Positions 11,512-29,066 of a DNA stretch of 29,066 nucleotides are shown piece after piece. This stretch comes from a virus. The notes under the pieces were generated by a model that searched no databases, was not told where the DNA came from, and worked only from the letters and a program-made list of their open reading frames with translations. The stretch covers positions 1-29,066 of the IMG/VR virus record IMGVR_UViG_3300025117_000199. One strand, 5' to 3'. Both the position numbers and the translations under genes were made by a program. Each line of letters begins with the position of its first letter. The first letter of the stretch is position 1.

Positions 11512-12747
11512 GTGAGCACAGAATTTGTTAATTCTCTAAAAGATAAGTTTTTCAGTATCAGACAAACAGATGAATTAGTTTGTTTTGACTTTTTTAACTC
11601 TTATCCATTTTTAGACAAGAACAAAATCATATATGACGTTAAAACTTTATATGATTTGGCGGGCTACGAAACAGATGATTTAGTTCCCTTGGCCGAAAAG
11701 GTCCTTGGCAGATCTAGGATTGCTAATTATATTTTGCTTTCTAAAAAAATGAATGCTTATTTAAAGAGCTATAAGGATTCAAAAATAGATTATAGTAAAT
11801 TTTCTATAGAAAGATTGCTACCAAAAGATCTTTATGAAAAAATTTGTTCTGAAAGATCAGCCATTCTCTATGAACTTTATCAAAAGAGTGAAGAGAAAGA
11901 GTTCTATAAAACTTTTTTTTCTGTTTTAAAGTGTCTTTTTGAAATATCTAGTAGCCCACTTTATATAGATTTAAATTCAATCAAAGAGGATAATTCTCGC
12001 TTTTCTAGTTTGATTAGATTATTAGCAAAGAACGATCAACTTTTTCTTCATTTTAGTGCCGTAGGAGCAAAAACAGGTAGACTTTCTTTTAAGAAGGGAA
12101 CAGTTAGCATATATCATTTACCAAAAGAATTAAGAAAATGTATTGTAGCTCCTAAAGATTATCAAATTGTGCAATTTGACTTTAAAAGCTTTCAGCCTAG
12201 ATTGGCAATTTTTTGTACGGACGATAAAGACTTTAGAAATAAATTTGTGGATGTTGAAGATATTTATTCTGTATTTCCTGGCGAGCGAGAAAAAAACAAG
12301 ATAGAATTTTTGTCTTGGATGTTCGCTAAAAAGAGGAAACATCCAATATTTGATGATGTCGCAGGCGCTATTTTGTTTTTCAGAAAAAAATTGCTTTCGG
12401 TTAAGCATAATGACAAATTAGTTAACAAGTTTGGCAGAACTCTCCATTGTGGCAACGAGGAAGAAAATATAGTATTTCAGAATTATATTACCTCAAACGA
12501 GGTTGATGCTATACTAACATTGATGGTTTCAATCCATCAGAGCTTAAAAGATAGGAAGTCTAGAATATTGCTTCCTTTTCATGATTGTATCATTTTTTAC
12601 ATACATGATTCCGAAATGGCACTTATAAAAGAAATTAAAAATATTATGGAAACAAAACACAAGGATTTATTTGGTTCTAGTTTTCCTGTTACTGTCAAAA
12701 TAGGACAAAATTTTGGGAATATGAAAACATTTAAGGAGCTTTCATGA
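11512..12747 (+). CDS. Divergent family A DNA polymerase, polymerase domain only
   Basis: A 411-residue protein matching the polymerase half of Pol I. Residues 188-192 read TGRLS. Motif A is 'VQFDFKSFQPRLAI' with Asp223. A 'FGRTLHCG' (307-314) and 'NYITSNEVDAILTLM' (324-338) correspond to the fingers-to-palm segment before motif C. Motif C is 'LPFHDCIIFYI' with His357-Asp358; the usual Glu after Asp is Cys. The O-helix region (about 262-280) is poorly conserved. No 3'-5' or 5'-3' exonuclease domain is present. Start is GTG 11512, apparently leaderless. It follows the tail genes and opens the replication module. Since a Pol III alpha gene lies at 26876, this may serve in repair, primer processing or a special replication step. 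Whether it is catalytically active is uncertain because of the motif changes. Confidence 0.72.
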   Translation: MSTEFVNSLKDKFFSIRQTDELVCFDFFNSYPFLDKNKIIYDVKTLYDLAGYETDDLVPLAEKVLGRSRIANYILLSKKMNAYLKSYKDSKIDYSKFSIERLLPKDLYEKICSERSAILYELYQKSEEKEFYKTFFSVLKCLFEISSSPLYIDLNSIKEDNSRFSSLIRLLAKNDQLFLHFSAVGAKTGRLSFKKGTVSIYHLPKELRKCIVAPKDYQIVQFDFKSFQPRLAIFCTDDKDFRNKFVDVEDIYSVFPGEREKNKIEFLSWMFAKKRKHPIFDDVAGAILFFRKKLLSVKHNDKLVNKFGRTLHCGNEEENIVFQNYITSNEVDAILTLMVSIHQSLKDRKSRILLPFHDCIIFYIHDSEMALIKEIKNIMETKHKDLFGSSFPVTVKIGQNFGNMKTFKELS

Positions 12748-13085
12748 AAAAGAGTTTGCTATTATTGGTGCTTTTGTGTGGCTGCGCAGGTTCAAAGCCC
12801 GCTACCGCAGACACAAAATCTTCTGTAAATATTATTTTATCTTCAGATAGTAAGACTCGTGCTATTATAAATGATAATCTTCCTTTGAGGTGTGCTTTTA
12901 TAAAGGAATGGGATGTAAGTACTATCAGAGATGACAAGAGAAAAGAGGGATGTTGGTGTATGTATCCTCCTTTTGTTGGTCCTAGTTCTGGACTTTTAAT
13001 AACATTTAGATACATGGAAGATAATTTTTGTACAGGAGAAGAAAAAAAATTACCTGAAAAGTCTGACGAGGAGATGAAGCTTTAA
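12744..13085 (+). CDS. Predicted lipoprotein
   Basis: A 113-residue secreted protein. The N-terminus is MKK followed by a Leu/Val run and the lipobox L-C-G-C with Cys14 as the lipidation site. Residue +2 is Ala, not Asp, so outer-membrane sorting is expected in a Gram-negative host. The mature part holds five Cys (including the pair in 'EGCWCMYPP') that could form disulfides in the periplasm, and an acidic/basic tail. ATG 12744 overlaps the polymerase stop (ATGA), so translation is coupled. Phage lipoproteins are often superinfection-exclusion or receptor-blocking factors or outer spanins; nothing in the sequence decides between these. It seems out of place inside a replication operon. Confidence 0.72.
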   Translation: MKKSLLLLVLLCGCAGSKPATADTKSSVNIILSSDSKTRAIINDNLPLRCAFIKEWDVSTIRDDKRKEGCWCMYPPFVGPSSGLLITFRYMEDNFCTGEEKKLPEKSDEEMKL

Positions 13086-19133: not shown

Positions 19134-20987
19134 ATGGAATTGTCTAGTGCTGTTTTGTCTGATGTAATTGTTTATACTAAATATTCAAAATATATTCCAG
19201 AACTAAGAAGAAGAGAAACATGGGATGAAATTGTTACAAGAAACATGCTTATGCATTTGAAAAAATATCCATCGCTTGCAGAGGATATTGGAAAAGCATA
19301 TGATTTAGTTTATCAGAAGAAGGTTCTCCCATCAATGAGATCGTTACAATTCGGCGGTCGCGCAATTGAAGTAAACAATTCAAGAATTTTTAATTGTTCT
19401 TATCTTCCTATAGATGATTATTTTGCTTTTCCTGAAATTATGTTTCTTTTACTCGGCGGTACAGGTGTAGGTTATAGCGTGCAGGCTCATCATGTAGAAA
19501 AGCTTCCTGTCATAAAAAAGCCCACAAAAACAAAACGTAGACACCTCATTCAAGATTCAATTGAGGGCTGGGCTGATGCGTGTAAAGTCTTGATGAAAGC
19601 ATATTTTTTTGGTTTGTCAAGTCCTGAGTTTGATTATTCAATTATCAGACCAAAGGGATCTCCATTGAAGACCGCAGGCGGTAAAGCTCCTGGCCCCGAT
19701 CCTCTTCATATGTGTTTGGAAAACGTTCGTCAAATTCTTCATGCAAAAGATTCAGGTGATCAATTAAGCCCATTAGAAGTTCATGATATTATTTGTTATT
19801 TAAGTGATGCAGTTTTGGCAGGCGGGATAAGAAGATCAGCATTAATATCTTTGTTTTCTTTAGATGATGAAGAAATGTTAATGTGCAAACAAGGTGATTG
19901 GTACAAGACATCTCCACAAAGGGCGAGGGCTAACAATTCTGCTGTTGTTCTGAGACACAGAATTAAAAAGAGTGAATTTTTTGATTTATGGAAAAAAATA
20001 GAAGAAAGTGGTTTTGGTGAGCCTGGAATATTTTTAAGCAATAATTCTGAAGTTGGAAGTAATCCTTGTATGGAAATTTCCCTGAAAGCAAATCAATTTT
20101 GTAATTTAACAAGTATTAATGCTTCAAACATAAAATCACAAAAAGATCTAAACGAAAGAGCCAGAGTAGCTTCTTTTATCGGTACACTTCAAGCAGGTTA
20201 CACAAACTTTCATTATCTTAGAGATATATGGAAAAAAACAACCGAAAAAGAAAGTCTTCTTGGTGTTAGCATGACAGGAATAGCCAGTGGAGATGTTTTA
20301 GAGTTTGATATGCACGACGCAGCAGAAATTGTTAAACAAGAAAATGAAAGAATAGCAAAATTAATTGGCATCAATAAAGCCGCGAGAACAACAGCAGTGA
20401 AACCAGAAGGTACATCTTCTCTTGTTCTTGGTACTTCATCTGGAGTCCATGCTTGGCATTCTCCATATTACATAAGAAGACTTAGAATTTTAAAGAATGA
20501 ATCAATTTATTCTTATCTCAAATTGAAGATTCCAGAATTAGTAGAAGATGATTTTGTAGATAAAAATAATGCTGTTGTTTCAATACCAATCAAAGCACCA
20601 GATAGAGCTGTTTTTAGAGATGAACCTGCTTTATCTTTATTGGAAAGAGTAAAGAAAGTATCTGTAGAGTGGGTAAAAAATGGTCACCGCAAAGGAGACA
20701 ACACACATAATGTAAGTTGCACAGTTTCCATAAGAAATGAAAAAGAGTGGGAAGATGTTGGTGAATGGATGTGGGAAAATAGAAGCGTATATAATGGATT
20801 GAGTGTATTGCCTTATGATGGTGGATCTTACAAACAAATGCCTTTCCAAGAGATTACCAAAGAACAATATGAAAAATTGTTAAATTATGTCCAAAAAATT
20901 GATTTGTCGGAAGTTCAAGAAGATGAAGACAATACAACATTAAAAGAAAGTGTAGCCTGTGGTGGTGGAGTTTGTGAAGTTCTTTAA
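19134..20987 (+). CDS. nrdJ: Class II (adenosylcobalamin) ribonucleoside-triphosphate reductase, monomeric type
   Basis: Reduces ribonucleotides to deoxyribonucleotides using B12 as radical source, without oxygen or a small subunit. It is 617 residues, against about 739 in the Lactobacillus leichmannii enzyme. Cys88 ('FNCSYLP'), Cys312 and Glu314 in 'NPCMEISL', and Cys323 ('FCNLT') correspond to the enzyme's active-site Cys119, Cys408/Glu410 and Cys419. The C-terminal pair Cys609/Cys614 ('ACGGGVCEVL') is the redox shuttle. 'VKPEGTSSLVLGTSSGVH' (403-420) is the conserved phosphate-binding loop region. Start ATG 19134 is preceded by AAGGGAGA. No NrdA/NrdB pair or thioredoxin is seen here. The reductase boosts dNTPs and suits a host that makes or takes up cobalamin. 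Confidence 0.92.
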   Translation: MELSSAVLSDVIVYTKYSKYIPELRRRETWDEIVTRNMLMHLKKYPSLAEDIGKAYDLVYQKKVLPSMRSLQFGGRAIEVNNSRIFNCSYLPIDDYFAFPEIMFLLLGGTGVGYSVQAHHVEKLPVIKKPTKTKRRHLIQDSIEGWADACKVLMKAYFFGLSSPEFDYSIIRPKGSPLKTAGGKAPGPDPLHMCLENVRQILHAKDSGDQLSPLEVHDIICYLSDAVLAGGIRRSALISLFSLDDEEMLMCKQGDWYKTSPQRARANNSAVVLRHRIKKSEFFDLWKKIEESGFGEPGIFLSNNSEVGSNPCMEISLKANQFCNLTSINASNIKSQKDLNERARVASFIGTLQAGYTNFHYLRDIWKKTTEKESLLGVSMTGIASGDVLEFDMHDAAEIVKQENERIAKLIGINKAARTTAVKPEGTSSLVLGTSSGVHAWHSPYYIRRLRILKNESIYSYLKLKIPELVEDDFVDKNNAVVSIPIKAPDRAVFRDEPALSLLERVKKVSVEWVKNGHRKGDNTHNVSCTVSIRNEKEWEDVGEWMWENRSVYNGLSVLPYDGGSYKQMPFQEITKEQYEKLLNYVQKIDLSEVQEDEDNTTLKESVACGGGVCEVL

Positions 20988-20996
20988 TGTGCATGA

Positions 20997-21617
20997 ATGC
21001 AAAAATATTATGATATATTTGGTGTGCAATCTAACGCCACTCAAGAAGAAATAAAGAAATCTTATAGGGCTCTTGCTAAAGAATATCACCCTGACAAAGG
21101 CGGGGATGAAGAAAAATTTAAACAGATTACAGAAGCCTATGAAATTCTTTCTGGAAAAAGACACCCGCCCAAAGATTATAATGCACCCCATTCAGGTTTT
21201 GGTGGTTTTGATATAAACGAAATACTTAAAAATTTTAATTTTGGGTTTGGGAGAGGAGATTTTAGACCACAAGAAAACAGGCCGCCAGAAGAGAAAGATA
21301 TCGTTTTTGGTCTTAAAATAAGCTTAGAAGACATAAAAAAAGGAAAAGATTTTAATATACAATATGATAAATCTGTTCCTTGCGTAAGGTGTAATGGTAT
21401 AGGTGGATCTTCTAAAAATGTATGCGCCAAATGTAAGGGAGAGGGCGTAATTAGAAATATAGCCAAACAAGGGAATATGATATCAGTATCAACTTCTACT
21501 TGTAATGCGTGCAACGGAAGTGGTATAATGGTAAAAGATCCTTGCACAGAATGTTCGTCAAGAGGATATAATATAAAGGCAGAAAATTTAAAATTTGAAG
21601 TTAAGGAGAAGAAGTAA
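20997..21617 (+). CDS. DnaJ-like co-chaperone with zinc-finger domain (copy 1)
   Basis: A J-domain protein of 206 residues. HPD is at 31-33 within '[24 protein letters not shown]'-type helix III sequence. A Phe/Gly-rich linker (66-90) follows, then a cysteine-rich domain with four CxxC pairs at 129/132, 143/146, 169/172 and 183/186, as in type I DnaJ. The C-terminal substrate-binding beta domains are mostly absent, so it ends shortly after the zinc domain. ATG 20997 was chosen because the frame begins [10 protein letters not shown], the standard J-domain start. It would stimulate host (or phage) Hsp70 during protein folding or complex remodelling. A second, diverged copy lies at 23038. Confidence 0.88.
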
Positions 21618-22127
21618 ATGGGATTATTTGATACAGTATATATTGATCCAAGGATATTGGAGGACAATAAAATTCATTGTCCAAAATGTAATTCTATGAC
21701 ATTAAAGTCTTTTCAAACAAAAGATTTTGACAATGCAATGGAATCCTATTATTTTGGTTATGATGATAACAAGGTTGCAAGACTCTACAAGCTTGATCCT
21801 CCTTCTGATAAAAGATTTTGGCATACATATACTCCAGAAGAAATTCAGAAGATGAGAGATAAAGAAAAGGGTGAGAATGGCTCTTTTCTGAGGTCTCTTA
21901 ATGATATGTGGATTGAAAATGGTGGTCATTGGGTAGAAGAAGCTCATCTTCCAAAGAATAGAAGGAAAAGAAACATGGGAGAACTTCCACATCAAATTTG
22001 TTCTTTTTATGAAATTTGTAATTCGTGCCATTCAGAAAAATATGATCCAAAAACATGGATTGAAATACAAGTCAAATTTACAGACGGAGTAGCTGTATCT
22101 ATAAAACAATCCGAAAGGGATGAATAA
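21618..22127 (+). CDS. Zinc-ribbon protein of unknown function
   Basis: A 169-residue protein starting directly after the DnaJ-like stop. Two CxxC knuckles, Cys21/Cys24 ('HCPKCNS') and Cys134/Cys137 ('ICNSCHS'), are separated by a charged middle region rich in Asp, Lys and Arg ('YTPEEIQKMRDKEKGENG', 'LPKNRRKRNMG'). A likely zinc ribbon whose halves come together in the fold. The C-terminus has a short beta stretch ('TWIEIQVKFTDGVAVSI'). It overlaps the DHH gene by one base. I do not recognise a named family; the placement between co-chaperone and phosphoesterase gives no clear role. Confidence 0.7.
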   Translation: MGLFDTVYIDPRILEDNKIHCPKCNSMTLKSFQTKDFDNAMESYYFGYDDNKVARLYKLDPPSDKRFWHTYTPEEIQKMRDKEKGENGSFLRSLNDMWIENGGHWVEEAHLPKNRRKRNMGELPHQICSFYEICNSCHSEKYDPKTWIEIQVKFTDGVAVSIKQSERDE

Positions 22128-23037: not shown

Positions 23038-23577
23038 GTGGACAAGTATTATCAAACTTTAGGTGTCCATTCAGGTGCCTCAAAAGATGAAATTAAGAAA
23101 GCCTACAGAAAATTAGCTACCAAACACCATCCCGATCGCGGCGGCAATGCTGAAGCTTTTAAAGAAATTAGCAAGGCATATGAACTGCTTATTGGCAAGA
23201 GACAGCTTTCTAGGGCCGAGAAACGCGAGCAAGAAAAGTCCAAGACACCCATTCAGCCATCATGTTATGATCAGTACAGATATGAACCCCCCAAAAAATA
23301 CACTCCACCTCCTCCACGACGACCAAAGTACATAGAATATGAATATGACAAATATGACAAATGTGATGATTGCGACGGGCAAGGGAAGCTAATAAAATAT
23401 TGTGATTTATGTCACGGTACAGGAAATGTTGTTCAAGGTGGCAGAGATAATGAAGTAATTTTAAAAAAGTGTAAAAGTTGTAATTTTAAAGGTTACAATG
23501 TTATATTTATCTGTAATAGCTGTAATGGCCGTGGTTCAAAATTCGTGGGAAAATTTAAATCAGGATACTGGAAATGA
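23038..23577 (+). CDS. DnaJ-like co-chaperone with zinc-finger domain (copy 2)
   Basis: A 179-residue J-domain protein starting at GTG 23038 ([10 protein letters not shown]). HPD is at 31-33 and a second helix follows ('[15 protein letters not shown]'). Unlike copy 1, the linker is Lys/Glu then Tyr/Pro-rich ('[20 protein letters not shown]', 82-101). Four CxxC pairs lie at 109/112, 122/125, 145/148 and 159/162. It shares layout with the 20997 gene but is otherwise quite diverged, so it is an old duplicate or separate acquisition. It lacks a Shine-Dalgarno site. It overlaps the next gene by ATGA. Role: Hsp70 recruitment, substrate unknown. Confidence 0.85.
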
Positions 23578-24095
23578 AAATCCGTATTGGTTTTTCCACC
23601 ACTGACAAATTGCTGTCAAGAGGGATCAGACTTTTTACTAAGTCAGATCTATCACATACCTATATACGTGTAGATGATACATTTCTAAAAGCTCCACTCA
23701 TTATTCACTCTGACTTCTCTGGTGCTGTTATTCAACACGCAAAAGCATTTGATCTAGAAAATAAAATCATACAAGAGTACGAGATAGATGATTCTAGATT
23801 AGACGACGCATTGGGAGAGAATCTGTGGTGGCTCCTTGGGAAGAAGTATGATTGGGGCAAGATATTTAATCATGCGCTATTCATTATTCTAAGAAGGTGG
23901 ATTGTTAGGAAAATAAAGAACCCAACAGTCAATCCAAGAAAGCTTCTGTGTGTGGATTTTTTACTCTATATTCTCAATGCCGCTGGCATTACTAATCTTC
24001 CAATAGGACATCTTACACCAAAAGATCTTTACGATTGGTGCGAGGCTAATTGGGAACGGCTCGGTTGGAAAAAGATATTAAACCAACATGTATAA
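23574..24095 (+). CDS. Permuted papain-fold (YiiX/NlpC-P60-like) hydrolase candidate
   Basis: A 173-residue protein with the order of a permuted papain-fold amidase or lipid-linked hydrolase: His28 in 'DLSHTYIRV' near the N-terminus and Cys126 in '[12 protein letters not shown]' near the C-terminus, with '[13 protein letters not shown]' between (92-104). These enzymes hydrolyse peptidoglycan peptides or acyl chains. No signal peptide is seen. If cytosolic, it would need a holin to reach the wall. It overlaps the copy 2 DnaJ stop (ATGA) and the TonB-like start (TAATG), so it is expressed with a protein that spans the periplasm. A lysis or envelope role is suggested; direct proof is lacking and the family assignment is from motif order. 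Confidence 0.55.
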
Positions 24096-24856
24096 TGAAA
24101 AAATTATTTCCATTCATTTTATTTTCTCTTATTTTGCATGTGATGAGTTTTTTTTTGTTAAATAAAATAAATCATAGAAATATCCCAAGTAAACCATTGT
24201 TAGTAAAAATTATACAATTAAAAGAAAAAGATGAAGTATCTAATAAAAAAGTTATTTCTTTGCCGAAGCCAAACAATAAAAAACCAAAAGATTCTCAACA
24301 TTTTAGTGAATCAGATAATTCAACCTCAAAAGAAACAATAAATAAAGAAAACACAACCAACGATGACAAACCCACAGGCCAGAACAACCTTAAAGAATTG
24401 GACAATGGAAAGTATAAAGGTATAAATTTATTTCCTCAAGATGCTATTAATTACGGTGCATCTCTAGGTGATGGAGGAGATAGCCAGGACATAGAAGGTC
24501 TTGAGATAGGAGGGCAAACAACTCTAAATTCAAAAGCATATAAGTATGCTTATTTTTTTAACAGAATCAGAGATACGGTTGTACAATTTTGGAAACCTAT
24601 TCCTGAAATTGATGCAGGAGATCCTTACAGAAATAAGTATTTTTATAAAAATAGAAAAACTGTTTTGCGCGTGACTCTTAGCGCGGAAGGTGATATAATT
24701 GATATATATGTGTCAAAATCTAGCGAAGTTGACTTTTTGGATGATTTGGCTTTAGATTCAATGAAACGTTGCGTGCAGTTTCCAAATCCTCCAAAGGGAC
24801 TGGTAAAGGATGGAACTATAATATTTACATTTGGTTTTATTGTAACAAAGGATTAA
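24095..24856 (+). CDS. TonB-like energy transducer protein
   Basis: A 253-residue inner-membrane protein laid out like TonB. Start ATG 24095 overlaps the upstream stop (TAATG); an upstream frame from 24050 is less likely. A short basic N-terminus leads into one membrane segment (5-22, 'FPFILFSLILHVMSFFLL') that keeps Ser11-x3-His15, equivalent to the E. coli TonB Ser16/His20 pair required for coupling to ExbB/ExbD. The periplasmic linker (30-105) is Pro/Lys then Asn/Ser/Thr-rich. The C-terminal domain (about 150-253) has 'VVQFWKPIPEID', 'LRVTLSAEGDI', a 'SKSSEVDFLDDLAL' helix and 'FPNPPKGL', the pattern of TonB C-terminal domains from Myxococcota/Bdellovibrionota-type bacteria. No ExbB/ExbD lies in the window. 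Phage TonB genes are, as far as I know, rare. Confidence 0.78.
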   Translation: MKKLFPFILFSLILHVMSFFLLNKINHRNIPSKPLLVKIIQLKEKDEVSNKKVISLPKPNNKKPKDSQHFSESDNSTSKETINKENTTNDDKPTGQNNLKELDNGKYKGINLFPQDAINYGASLGDGGDSQDIEGLEIGGQTTLNSKAYKYAYFFNRIRDTVVQFWKPIPEIDAGDPYRNKYFYKNRKTVLRVTLSAEGDIIDIYVSKSSEVDFLDDLALDSMKRCVQFPNPPKGLVKDGTIIFTFGFIVTKD

Positions 24857-24858
24857 AA

Positions 24859-25092
24859 ATGAGAACATATAAAGAAGTTGAAAGAACCGTTAAAGAAGCT
24901 ATGTTAAAAGAAATTTTCTGTGATAAGTGTGGCGATAGTATGGGATCATTAGAATATTCTATTAATGGTTGTAAATTTGTTATGGATTTTGGATATGGAT
25001 CGCAGCATGATAATGAAATTTATGAAATAGAATTATGTGACAATTGTAGTAATTGGTTGTTTGACCAACTGAAAACAAAGAAAGAAATATAA
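24859..25092 (+). CDS. Small zinc-binding protein, 77 residues
   Basis: Starts at ATG 24859, two bases after the TonB-like stop. Two CxxC pairs, Cys21/Cys24 ('FCDKCGDSM') and Cys60/Cys63 ('LCDNCSNW'), flank a beta-rich middle containing 'FVMDFGYGSQHDN'. This is a rubredoxin/zinc-ribbon-like arrangement, with a helical N-terminus ('EVERTVKEAMLKE') and a C-terminal helix. Similar small zinc proteins are common in phage accessory regions but I cannot assign a function. Two further short genes follow. Confidence 0.65.
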   Translation: MRTYKEVERTVKEAMLKEIFCDKCGDSMGSLEYSINGCKFVMDFGYGSQHDNEIYEIELCDNCSNWLFDQLKTKKEI

Positions 25093-25101
25093 GATTATAA
25101 G

Positions 25102-25260
25102 ATGGAAAAAAAAAAGATTATAAAGGAATCTATATTTGGTTCTTACGAGGATCAAAAAAAGAAAGCATCTTGTGAACACGAATGGGAAGAAAAAAAAGGA
25201 ATAATCTTTGATTGGATAGAGGTTTCTTTTAGATGTTTAAAGTGTGGGACACATAAATGA
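25102..25260 (+). CDS. Very small zinc-ribbon-like protein, 52 residues
   Basis: ATG 25102 opens 52 codons to TGA 25258-25260. The product has CxH ('CEHEWEE', Cys24/His26) and CxxC-x2-H ('CLKCGTHK', Cys45/Cys48/His51), a treble-clef-like set with conserved Trp between, and a Lys-rich N-terminus. It is too short for most ORF callers, but its stop is fused by ATGA to the next small gene, and its metal-ligand spacing is not random. Function unknown. Confidence 0.6.
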   Translation: MEKKKIIKESIFGSYEDQKKKASCEHEWEEKKGIIFDWIEVSFRCLKCGTHK

Positions 25261-25433
25261 AAAATTATATTACAAAGATTCTGTATTTTTTGCTTGGCGC
25301 AGCTATTGCATGTGTAGCTTATAGCTATTATGATTTATATAGGCTTAAAAAATTTGAATCAACCATTATGCAAAAATGCAAGGATGTATGCACACATATT
25401 TGTATGCCCAACACAAAAGGAGATAGTTTATGA
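25257..25433 (+). CDS. Small membrane protein or lipoprotein, 58 residues
   Basis: ATG 25257 overlaps the stop of the upstream gene and TGA 25431-25433 overlaps the MazG start (ATGA at both ends). The N-terminus MKNYITK precedes a hydrophobic run 'ILYFLLGAAIACVAYSYY' (8-25), which is either a single transmembrane helix or a signal peptide with lipobox A-I-A-Cys19. The remainder is short and carries Cys41, Cys45 and Cys49 in a C-x3-C-x3-C pattern. Small single-pass or lipidated phage proteins can be holins, spanins or exclusion factors. The TonB-like gene four positions upstream makes an envelope role attractive but unproven. Confidence 0.6.
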   Translation: MKNYITKILYFLLGAAIACVAYSYYDLYRLKKFESTIMQKCKDVCTHICMPNTKGDSL

Positions 25434-26670: not shown

Positions 26671-26886
26671 ATGAAGTGTTTCCATTGTCGAAACAATATT
26701 GACAATCCTCTGCGGACAATTATGATTTTTGATGGCAGATTCGCTAATGATATAACCTTGTCACGAGGAGATATGGATATAATAATGGAAGCAACTTTCA
26801 GAATACCCCTCGTTGATGATCAAATTGTAAAATTTTTTCATTATGAATGCTTTAGATTTGTTGCTGGGAAAGAATATGTCACTTAA
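26671..26886 (+). CDS. Small zinc-finger protein, 71 residues
   Basis: Starts at ATG 26671, about three bases from the predicted transcription start. Cys3/Cys6 ('CFHCRN') and His57/Cys60 ('FHYECF') form a likely zinc site around a middle of two short strands ('TIMIFDGRF') and a helix. The product has no recognised family. Its stop lies 11 bases inside the polymerase III gene (ATG 26876), so the two are translationally coupled. It could be a partner or regulator of the polymerase; only position supports that. Confidence 0.62.
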   Translation: MKCFHCRNNIDNPLRTIMIFDGRFANDITLSRGDMDIIMEATFRIPLVDDQIVKFFHYECFRFVAGKEYVT

Positions 26887-27742
26887 GTTTTTTAATTTAC
26901 ATGGCCATTCTGGGGCGAGTCTTTATGATGCTATAGGTTCTCCTGAAAAGTACGCAGAATGGATGATCAAGAATACAGGAGAAGATTCTGGTGGTTTCGC
27001 TATTACAGATCATGGTAATATGAATAACATTGGAGCCCAAGCTAACGCTCAAAAAAAATATGATGCCAAAGGCATTCCTGTTAAAATGCTTTATGGAATT
27101 GAGGCATATTATATACCATCGTTGGAAGAGTGGCATGAATTAAAACTTAAAAAAGACGATCAGAAAAAACAAGAAAAGAAAAAAAGAATTGTAGTTGATT
27201 CAGAAGATGCAGTTGCTGTTATAGAAAACGAGCAAGAATCTAAATCAAAATATTTTGATCCAATTCATCGTAGGAATCATCTTGTTCTCGTCGCACAGAA
27301 TCAGGGTGGCCTTAAAAATCTTTTTAGACTTGTTTCTAGGTCATATAGAGAAGGTTTTTATAAAAAACCCAGAATTGATTTTGAAATGCTTAAAGAACTA
27401 AACGAAGGACTAATTGCGTCAACGGCATGCCTACATCCAGACACACTAATTCAAACATCTGCTGGGTTACTTTCTATTAAAGATGTTGTTGAAAAAGTAA
27501 AAAATAAAGAAGAGTTATTTGTTCTTGGTTTTGACGAAAACTCAAAAAGAGTTTGTTTTAAAAAGATACTTTGGGGTGACAAAACAAGAAAAAATGAGAA
27601 ATTAATTAAAATAAAATTAAAGAACGGAAAAGAGCTAAAACTTACCAAAGATCATAAAGTATATACTGACAAAGGCTGGATTGAAGCTGGAATGCTTACC
27701 AAAGATCATAAAATATTATCTTTAGGTATACCACCAAAGTAA
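26876..27742 (+). CDS. dnaE: DNA polymerase III alpha N-terminal part (PHP domain) fused to split-intein N half
   Basis: A 288-residue product. Residues 1-184 are the PHP domain of a bacterial-type family C polymerase: 'FNLHGHSGASLYDAI' (6-20) and 'FAITDHGNMN' (41-50) give metal-ligand His and Asp, and 'LYGIEAYYI' and 'HLVLVAQNQGGLKNLF' are standard alpha-subunit segments, with a charged insert between (82-127). The alpha sequence stops at 'GLIASTA' (178-184) and at Cys185 an intein begins ('CLHPDT'). 'LTKDHKVYT' (256-264) is the block B motif with His260, and the frame ends at 288 without a C-intein. I prefer ATG 26876 (MSLKFFNLHGHS) over the in-frame ATG 26843, because the PHP domain begins there. 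The rest of the polymerase is at 28763. Function requires protein trans-splicing. Confidence 0.88.
   Translation: MSLKFFNLHGHSGASLYDAIGSPEKYAEWMIKNTGEDSGGFAITDHGNMNNIGAQANAQKKYDAKGIPVKMLYGIEAYYIPSLEEWHELKLKKDDQKKQEKKKRIVVDSEDAVAVIENEQESKSKYFDPIHRRNHLVLVAQNQGGLKNLFRLVSRSYREGFYKKPRIDFEMLKELNEGLIASTACLHPDTLIQTSAGLLSIKDVVEKVKNKEELFVLGFDENSKRVCFKKILWGDKTRKNEKLIKIKLKNGKELKLTKDHKVYTDKGWIEAGMLTKDHKILSLGIPPK
27428..27742 (+). other. Split intein, N-terminal half (104 residues)
   Basis: Starts with the nucleophile Cys (codon 27428-27430) directly after the extein 'LIASTA'. Block A is 'CLHPDTLIQT' and block B is 'LTKDHKVYT', with the conserved His three residues after Thr. It ends 'GIPPK', followed by a stop. 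No C-intein motifs occur before the stop. The partner is 28763-28885. Confidence 0.88.
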
Positions 27743-27771
27743 TTATACAAAATTCAATTGCAGGTATAACA

Positions 27772-28794
27772 ATGTTATGTATGGTGTGCAAACAAGAATT
27801 TCAACAAACCAGGAAACAATTAACTTGTAGCAAGAAGTGCAGATATACATCCACAAGTAAAGCAAAAAAAGATGAGAAGTTTTTAAGTACTTTGTGGGCA
27901 GAAGTTGGAAAAGAAAATATAAAAAACAAAGTAAACAACTTTCATTCTCCGTTAATGATATATGATTTTTTAAATAGAGATTTTTCACATATATTAAAAA
28001 TGTTTAATATAAATAAGAGAAAATTTAGAAATATAATTAATAAACAATTTATATTTGATATATCTGGATATAACAGACAACAAAACCATTTTAAACTTCA
28101 ATATAAATTTCCGAAAGAAACTTCTTTGGAGCAACTAAAGATAATACAAAAAGAATACGCTCAAAAAGGCCAAAAAGAGACAATAAAAATAAGAAATAAA
28201 AAACACGCTTTTAACAAAAAGCAATCTTTAGAATATTGGTTAAGCGTTTTTAAAGATGAAAATGAAGCAAAAAAAGCATTAGACAAGCACAAAAAAGAAA
28301 GTTCTCCTTTTTGTATAGAATTTTATCTTAGAAGAGGATACAGCGAAGTGGTTGGCCGCAAGGAGATGCTCAAGCTTAATTGTATGGGTGCGTTAGCTGC
28401 TTTAAAAAAATGTCAAAAACCTAGAACAGAAAACACAATAAAAGAAATTTTAGAGAAAAACAATATTGAATATGTGGCACAATATAAAGTAAAACTTAAA
28501 AAAGAAGAAAAAGAGTTTCGTAAAAGTTTTTATGTTTATGATTTTTATTTACCCAAGTTAAATGTATTGATTGATTGTCATGGAACGTATTGGCATTGTG
28601 ATCCAAGAATATATAAATCTGGTGACAATATCAAGTTTGCTGGAAAAGATGAAATTTCCGTTAATTTTGTTTGGGATATAGATGCTCACAGAAAAAAAAT
28701 CGCACTGATAAGAAAATATAGGTATGTTGTATTTTGGGAATTAGATCTTAAAGAAGGTTGTGATGAAAAAGTTATATCAATTTTGCGAAATTGA
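27772..28794 (+). CDS. Free-standing Vsr-like (EDxHD-type) homing endonuclease
   Basis: A 340-residue selfish endonuclease located between the halves of the fractured polymerase gene. N-terminal zinc finger with Cys3/Cys6 and Cys19/Cys23. The middle (60-215) is basic and helical, probably DNA-recognising. The C-terminal nuclease fold carries an 'ENTIKEILEKN' helix (220-230), 'YVYDFYLP' (254-261, Asp257), 'VLIDCHGTYWHCDP' (265-278) and 'YRYVVFWELDL' (317-327). That is the Vsr/DUF559-like order known from endonucleases found beside split inteins. The usual Glu before the His is Asp here. It begins 29 bases after the N-half stop and its end overlaps the C-half start by 32 bases, so insertion is compact. 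Its frame differs from the N half, so it is a separate protein. Confidence 0.78.
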   Translation: MLCMVCKQEFQQTRKQLTCSKKCRYTSTSKAKKDEKFLSTLWAEVGKENIKNKVNNFHSPLMIYDFLNRDFSHILKMFNINKRKFRNIINKQFIFDISGYNRQQNHFKLQYKFPKETSLEQLKIIQKEYAQKGQKETIKIRNKKHAFNKKQSLEYWLSVFKDENEAKKALDKHKKESSPFCIEFYLRRGYSEVVGRKEMLKLNCMGALAALKKCQKPRTENTIKEILEKNNIEYVAQYKVKLKKEEKEFRKSFYVYDFYLPKLNVLIDCHGTYWHCDPRIYKSGDNIKFAGKDEISVNFVWDIDAHRKKIALIRKYRYVVFWELDLKEGCDEKVISILRN

Positions 28795-28885
28795 TTGTAT
28801 TAAAGAATGTGAAATTTCTGACGTTTATGACATAGAAGTTGAAGAAGTTCGTAATTTTTTTGCTAACGATATGTTGGTACATAAT
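28763..28885 (+). other. Split intein, C-terminal half (41 residues)
   Basis: Begins at the gene start ('MKKLYQFCEIDC') and contains block F and block G with terminal His40-Asn41 before Cys42 (codon 28886-28888). The combined intein of 104 + 41 residues has no endonuclease domain, a usual size for split inteins. It overlaps the endonuclease ORF by 32 bases. Confidence 0.87.
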
Positions 28886-29066
28886 TGTGTCGCTGGAATT
28901 CCATCATGGTGTTCTATGCAATCTGCTACTCCTGCTGAAGCTCAAAAACTTTATGATCAAGAACTTTTTCCATTGATGGAACTTTTTGGTAAAGATAGAT
29001 TTTTTTTAGAACTACAATTTAACAAGCTTCCAGAACAAAAAATAGTAAATCAGCATTTAATAGAAT
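28763..29066 (+). CDS. dnaE: Split-intein C half fused to DNA polymerase III alpha remainder (3' end outside window)
   Basis: ATG 28763 has AAGAAGG at 28751-28757, lying inside the endonuclease gene. The first 41 residues are a C-intein: block F 'VYDIEVEEVRNFFAN' (21-35) and block G 'MLVHN' ending at Asn41, followed by Cys42 as the +1 extein nucleophile. From Cys42 the polymerase resumes ('CVAGIPSWCSM', then 'ELFGKDRFFLELQ' and a 'VNQHLI' segment at the window edge), fitting Pol III alpha at the end of the PHP region. About 100 residues are visible; the catalytic palm lies beyond. Together with the 26876 product, splicing would give a continuous 'GLIASTA-CVAGIPSW' junction, which is a normal alpha-subunit sequence. 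Confidence 0.88.
   Translation, partial: MKKLYQFCEIDCIKECEISDVYDIEVEEVRNFFANDMLVHNCVAGIPSWCSMQSATPAEAQKLYDQELFPLMELFGKDRFFLELQFNKLPEQKIVNQHLIE

Follow-up and report, generated by a model that had tools for sequence, protein, structure and literature searches.

A TonB/TolA-like gene on a phage genome fragment that retains candidate motor-docking residues

Does a phage encode a TonB- or TolA-type transducer of its own and, if so, to what end? Phages and bacteriocins use Ton and Tol machines to get into cells, and some phage proteins are known to block receptors; a phage equipped with its own transducer would intervene at the motor. The question is raised by one gene of the viral DNA analysed here, positions 1 to 29,066 of IMG/VR record IMGVR_UViG_3300025117_000199 (the window), whose protein product is called P0001. 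The first-pass annotation, made from the sequence alone, had described a membrane anchor, a polar linker and a C-terminal TonB-type domain in that order, with Ser11-x3-His15 in the anchor, and all of these are present in the translated frame (Table 1). The linker is polar, rich in Lys and Asn, and about 100 residues long. The same annotation had suggested that the gene may be more than a decayed copy, and the sequence agrees: the frame is intact and the docking residues are retained, on which grounds a decayed copy was rejected as the identity of the gene.

Table 1. Positions in the window of the TonB/TolA-like gene, the parts of its product and the adjoining genes.
Feature	Position	Strand	Basis or remark
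CDS, TonB/TolA-like protein	24095..24856	+	253 aa plus stop, open frame translated
N-terminal membrane helix, residues 5-26	24107..24172	+	AlphaFold2 model
Ser11-x3-His15 motor-docking residues, first half of SHLS	24125..24139	+	sequence, alignment A1, published motif
Putative motor-box-like hydrophobic stretch, residues 35-42	24197..24220	+	homologue alignment
Linker, residues 43-145, low confidence, presumably disordered	24221..24529	+	AlphaFold2 model
C-terminal TonB_2/TolA-III-like domain, residues 147-250	24533..24844	+	profiles, model, structure search
Upstream gene	23574..24095	+	phrog_1128 match, E 1.8e-12
Small Cys-containing ORF, next downstream	24859..25092	+	ORF reading

The gene most likely belongs to the phage, since it stands among phage genes on the same strand, has phage-like codon use and begins within the stop codon of the gene before it. 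A contaminating host contig, a danger that the first-pass annotation had named, is unlikely in view of the flanking phage genes, the codon use and the overlapping ATG. Stop and start share bases in TAATG, where the TAA of the upstream gene runs into the ATG of the TonB-like gene, an arrangement suggestive of translational coupling; no ribosome-binding site of the TonB-like gene stands out by eye. The upstream gene, tentatively named YiiX and possibly a hydrolase, returned nothing in Pfam and PDB sequence searches. Neighbouring genes encode DnaJ-like, DHH phosphoesterase, MazG, PhoH and polymerase proteins, and the MazG gene, located 574 bases downstream, has a clear phage-family match. On the same strand the window encodes a tail sheath, tail tube, baseplate hub and single-strand binding protein. 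Genes of RecA-like, exonuclease, DnaB-like and class II reductase type, all four below their NCBIfam equivalog cut-offs, are also present, together with the first part of an intein-bearing DNA polymerase III alpha gene. The codon score of the TonB-like gene is 0.286, with 18 of the 30 other window genes at 0.25-0.35, and its GC content is low (0.307). Among the proteins scanned in this 29-kb fragment no ExbB or ExbD and no TonB-dependent receptor was recognised; the neighbouring window genes scanned included no tolQR, tolB or pal, and no outer-membrane lipoprotein partner adjoining the TonB-like gene was seen by eye.

Several further features of the window were recorded. Two DnaJ-like genes (20997-21617 and 23038-23577) combine a J domain with zinc-finger-like repeats. 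The DNA polymerase III alpha gene (26843-29065) is split after its PHP region by the start of an intein (TIGR01445, E 2e-14), a 340-residue ORF at 27772-28794 has matches among phage families of homing/HNH type, and by eye the frame at 28760 seems to hold the intein end, after which the polymerase resumes. Between the sheath and tube genes, the gene at 2173-2763 (GC 0.272) reads by eye like a GIY-YIG homing endonuclease. The ORF at 25258-25432, 3' of the TonB-like gene, has a probable membrane helix and several Cys (by eye), and a lipoprotein-like ORF lies far from the TonB-like gene, at 12744-13085. The sheath (2-2164) and reductase (19134-20987) resemble those of Microcystis phage Mel-JY01, and the sheath also resembles that of the 484-kb uncultured phage LR756508. 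By these resemblances, the fragment may derive from a large contractile-tailed phage.

Profile searches of the kind proposed by the first-pass annotation place P0001 above the curated cut-offs of Pfam TonB_2 (E 1.9e-7; 31.5 bits, cut-off 22), Pfam TonB_C (25.1 bits, cut-off 24.6) and NCBIfam TIGR01352 tonB_Cterm (34.3 bits, cut-off 27.1). The NCBIfam TolA equivalog TIGR02794 scored below its cut-off (21.7 bits against 59.45), and a PDB sequence search gave a weak match to H. pylori TonB (E 0.01). One phage family considered as a TonB family, phrog_17916, was set aside: its match had an E of 0.019, and among 14 control genomes it matched only Bacillus subtilis.

An AlphaFold2 model of P0001 was built with 55 sequences; a single-sequence fold reached a mean pLDDT of only 36.7. 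Block means of pLDDT are 91 and 97 over residues 1-20 and 78 over 21-30 at the N-terminus; in the C-terminal domain, ten-residue blocks average 58-91 over 151-190 and 92-97 over 191-250. This domain is modelled as helix-strand-strand-helix-strand. Its best solved match by VIA-align 2, with PDB rows of Z < 5 disregarded, is TolA domain III (Z 11.3; rmsd 2.6 over 88 residues), in a structure of the complex with g3p of phage IF1; H. pylori TonB follows at Z 9.2 and the E. coli TonB chains at Z 5.6-6.2. Foldseek placed H. pylori TonB first (6.4e-5) and TolA-III second (3.7e-4). The structure prediction that the first-pass annotation had called for thus yields a TonB/TolA-type C-terminal fold, one that in the model is nearer TolA-III than enterobacterial TonB. 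Its description of the gene as a phage TonB homologue stands insofar as profiles, homologues and structure agree on a TonB-superfamily protein; a classical TonB it is not.

Relatives of P0001 were sought with FPNPPKG, presumably a motif of Bdellovibrio TonB-like proteins. A scan of genome_contigs with this pattern returned at least 118 stretches, and among the 80 listed, 75 encode the same type of protein; the other five (L105, L111, L113, L153 and L156) were dropped as chance. By the submitters' titles, counted by eye among the matches listed, 68 of the 75 family rows are Bdellovibrionota-type, and the other seven are titled Myxococcota, Myxococcales, Deltaproteobacteria or Proteobacteria. 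The rows listed that score highest with P0001 are all of myxobacterial type (L164, 125 bits; L151, 117; L149, 98; L115, 82). L164 is the best cellular homologue, at 126.8 bits over residues 27-250; although titled Bdellovibrio sp., it is treated here as probably Myxococcota because its phylum group includes the genomes of L121, L151 and L115. Identity is 36-38% in the three best genome matches and, in the C-terminal domain, 50% over 115 residues with the nearest homologue. P0001 and L164 also have linker stretches in common, around residues 53-82 (KET-type) and at 112-116 (LFPQD).

A tree of the C-terminal domain was computed from 69 of the 75 family rows (six short ones were kept out), seven TolA-like rows, four others, and E. 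coli TolA and TonB. P0001 groups with L164, L151, L149, L115, L121 and L219 at 100/100, and the TolA-like rows form a separate branch with E. coli TolA at 81/98; the tree has few columns, long branches (that of P0001 included) and an unsettled bootstrap, and its details are unsure. Rows received the TolA-like label for their proximity to an ExbD/TolR match, without a check for TolB or Pal, and three further ExbD-near hits (L225, L232 and L236), not recovered by profile, are absent from the tree. Taken together, P0001 is a homologue, divergent and shortened but complete, of the stand-alone TonB/TolA-like proteins found in Myxococcota and Bdellovibrionota, and its membership of this family within the TonB/TolA superfamily can be asserted with high confidence.

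This cellular gene is widespread in its two groups. At a threshold of E 1e-6, P0001 finds matches in 180 of 195 genomes of the group with myxobacterial members, usually a single one per genome (best 126.8 bits), and in 185 of 191 genomes of the Bdellovibrio group (Bdellovibrio/Bacteriovorax; best 87.2 bits); five genomes of other kinds, with no positive control among them, gave no match. The family is called stand-alone because profile searches of eight host genomes found no ExbD/TolR match within 20 kb on the contig for any of ten family copies, a test limited by the short contigs that draft genomes can have. The nearest ExbD match to a family copy lies about 23 kb off, in G081, and in the same genomes six of seven TolA-like copies stand within 1 kb of an ExbD/TolR match, the seventh (L213) about 10 kb off. 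Seven E. coli Tol/TonB proteins compared by phmmer with the genes around the host copies gave no matches, even to the TonB-like genes, which marks this comparison as insensitive. In the two phylum groups (those of G081 and G082) the stand-alone TonB_2-type gene has the look of a core transducer. This analysis tied the gene, nearly universal in both phyla, to no named, studied gene.

The host of the phage was approached through DNA similarity. Twenty thousand (20,000) of the 29,066 window bases gave short matches (E 0.01) in eight of 193 myxobacterial-group genomes and in 71 of 191 Bdellovibrio-group genomes, a comparison in which AT-rich genomes match more by composition alone; the strongest Bdellovibrio-group matches fall at window 23047-23138 and 21108-21153, within the two DnaJ-like genes. 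If anything, these DNA matches would favour a Bdellovibrio-group host, whereas the protein tree leans the other way. The AT-rich genome G254 (locus GC 0.35) retains the neighbourhood of L164, and its GC is similar to that of the window, which ranges by kilobase from 0.285 to 0.403, a weak hint to the host. P0001 may indicate that the phage is contractile-tailed and infects a myxobacterial or Bdellovibrio-type host.

The residues by which such a protein could engage a motor were examined in alignment A1, consisting of P0001 and 54 homologues taken from the 75 family rows. His15 is matched by His in all 55 rows, that of L115 falling outside the membrane helix in a row with a truncated start. Ser four residues before the His occurs in 45 of 55 rows, including P0001; in L164, L151 and L149, the nearest homologues, this residue is Ala. 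Among 61 homologues whose start is closed, 48 have the S-x3-H pattern within their first 90 residues, one of them (L160) outside the helix by eye. In the second half of SHLS, Leu22 of P0001 fits (+7 from the His) and Asn26 replaces the last Ser (+11); Leu and Ser are found in 18 and 6 of the 55 rows, and by this alignment the later SHLS positions appear not to be held fast in the stand-alone family. Residues 35-42 align with similar hydrophobic stretches in some homologues; the AlphaFold2 model has no strand there.

Of 30 columns at least 90% conserved in the 54 homologues, P0001 retains 22 and alters eight. Seven of the 22 make up FPNPPKG, the motif that had retrieved the rows, leaving 15 conserved columns beyond the search motif, and one of the 22 is the start Met. 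Two of the changes, Gly211 to Glu and Phe223 to Met, affect positions invariant in all 54 aligned homologues; they could reflect lost or altered target binding, or drift.

According to passages of PMC12215075, Ser16/His20 of TonB and Ser18/His22 of TolA touch ExbB/TolQ, the His is essential, the Ser/His pair forms a path of signal transmission, and Ton and Tol can partly complement one another; an excerpt of PMC12204202 describes the same docking motif together with a "motor box" strand following the membrane helix. The first-pass annotation spoke of a proton-coupling motif, for which the residues are indeed present; since the passages of PMC12215075 present Ser and His as ExbB/TolQ contacts, that wording is overstated and "motor-docking" is the better term. 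The interaction of P0001 with host ExbB/ExbD that was proposed along with it is plausible.

No second viral copy of the gene was recovered. A tblastn search of 50,697 phage records with P0001, at E up to 10, gave no match. Four scans of viral_contigs were also negative, P0001 patterns returning 36 stretches with none confirmed, FPNPPKG four hits, all in short unrelated frames, and KYAxFFNR ten hits with no family match; these scans use exact peptide patterns, which divergent copies can escape, and records very near the window were perhaps excluded. Single-protein patterns of P0001 in genome_contigs gave 110 stretches, none confirmed. Among BFVD structures no viral match reached E 0.001; the top one, at 9.9e-3, is named for tetratricopeptide repeats. 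Among neighbouring genes, a PhoH scan gave no useful relatives, a DHH scan returned only L002, and a MazG scan gave nine loci, none with the TonB-like gene or its near neighbours. L002 (from 3300025073) is the only close relative of the window, with 88-93% DNA identity in shared blocks, and its contig stops exactly at window position 24095, together with the stop codon that precedes the TonB-like gene; this could mark a variable place in the genome, or be chance. The hypothetical protein at 21618-22127 is 50% identical (79/157) to that of L002, and eight other compared proteins are 86-98% identical; it is either unusually variable or differs from L002 in frame.

In open-licence papers, no match was found to phrases for a phage-encoded TonB, and no report of host takeover through Ton/Tol-type motors. 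Passages of two papers place other Ton components on phages, a SusC-type receptor in a megaphage (PMC9723777) and ExbB in Lentisphaerae phages (PMC11361711); in the present case the component is the transducer itself.

What could such a protein do for a phage? Our tentative preference, held at less than even probability for the full mechanism, is that P0001 mimics the host's own transducer, docking on an ExbBD- or TolQR-type motor of the host, which it diverts or competes for. P0001 would insert into the inner membrane of a Myxococcota/Bdellovibrionota-type host, where Ser11 and His15, perhaps with the hydrophobic stretch after the helix, would dock on the ExbBD- or TolQR-type proton motor. 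Hosts of the Myxococcus xanthus kind do have motors that could serve a protein of this type. The linker, about equal in length to that of E. coli TonB, would reach across to the outer membrane, where P0001 may compete with or replace the host protein; the outcome would be diversion or blocking of outer-membrane traffic, for instance receptors shut against rival phages. We judge diversion or blocking more likely than plain supplementation, which follows close behind: P0001 has kept its docking residues, but its linker is shortened and two invariant C-terminal positions differ. Against the full mechanism stand the occurrence of the gene in one phage fragment, the Asn in place of the last SHLS Ser (although just 6 of 55 rows have that Ser), the Ala found four residues before His in L164, L151 and L149, the two altered invariant positions, and the lack of a recognised ExbB or ExbD gene among the window proteins scanned. 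The broader view, in which a predatory or social bacterium has its proton motor seized by a dedicated phage trans-envelope transducer and its outer-membrane traffic rerouted, possibly for superinfection exclusion, is doubtful.

P0001 might instead work like the host protein as an energised supplement, sustaining outer-membrane uptake or maintenance (nutrients, iron, or cobalamin for the class II reductase). This is rather unlikely, although the architecture is complete, the docking residues are retained, Ton parts have been reported in phages, and the best NCBIfam match of the phage reductase is adenosylcobalamin-dependent (246 bits, below the family cut-off of 340). Of 80 virus records that carry a related reductase (80 of 126 relatives, many of them fragments), none has TonB_2, nor does either of two named phages, in a search in which the window, as positive control, did match; the link to a B12-dependent reductase drawn in the first-pass annotation is not supported, and a direct one was rejected. 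The lack of ExbD within 20 kb of the ten family copies in eight genomes leaves the family with no known link to a receptor system, and the two positions altered in P0001 never vary in 54 homologues.

That the gene is a passenger, a host gene captured in one phage lineage without a lasting role, is improbable. It would suit the single viral instance in the phage records and viral_contigs searched, the L002 contig ending at the gene as if the place were variable, and the alteration of eight of 30 well-conserved columns; yet the frame has stayed intact over a long divergence (36-38% identity to the three best matches), the 15 conserved columns outside the search motif are kept, and codon use is phage-like. 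Envelope disruption, with P0001 as a periplasm-spanning factor of late lysis, spanin-like or interfering with Tol, has still less in its favour and is quite improbable: the modelled inner-membrane anchor and long linker and the coupling to a gene that is presumably a hydrolase would fit, but the neighbours (DnaJ-like, DHH, MazG, PhoH and polymerase) form no recognised lysis cassette, no adjoining outer-membrane lipoprotein partner is seen, and a spanin would have no need of docking residues. Host DNA misassembled into the phage contig, to which the L002 break at 24095 might point, is hardly credible given phage-type genes on the same strand on both sides (the overlapping upstream ORF and the MazG gene), phage-like codon use and the lack of a close host copy, the best match in 195 and 191 genomes being 38% identical.

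Compared with known systems, P0001 is closest to the stand-alone TonB_2 family, as grouped here by FPNPPKG, with which it shares its sequence family, the anchor His, linker stretches and the C-terminal domain. It differs in being phage-encoded, in having Glu211 and Met223 instead of Gly and Phe, and in length, with 253 residues against mostly 380-530 for the listed open frames of the myxobacterial group and mostly 264-350 for those of the Bdellovibrio group. TolA of the Tol-Pal system has the same anchor Ser-x3-His, three-part architecture and C-terminal fold (Z 11.3), however no Tol gene is seen beside the P0001 gene, the TolA branch of the tree is another one (81/98), and P0001 falls below the TolA equivalog cut-off. 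TonB of the ExbBD system is similar in anchor motif, in the TIGR01352 score above cut-off and in the H. pylori structure (Z 9.2), whereas the E. coli TonB chains reach only Z 5.6-6.2 and no receptor or ExbBD neighbour is seen. The phage-carried SusC-type receptor and ExbB, as they appear in passages of PMC9723777 and PMC11361711, resemble P0001 in being Ton components on a phage genome; they are, however, other components of the system, and P0001 is the transducer.
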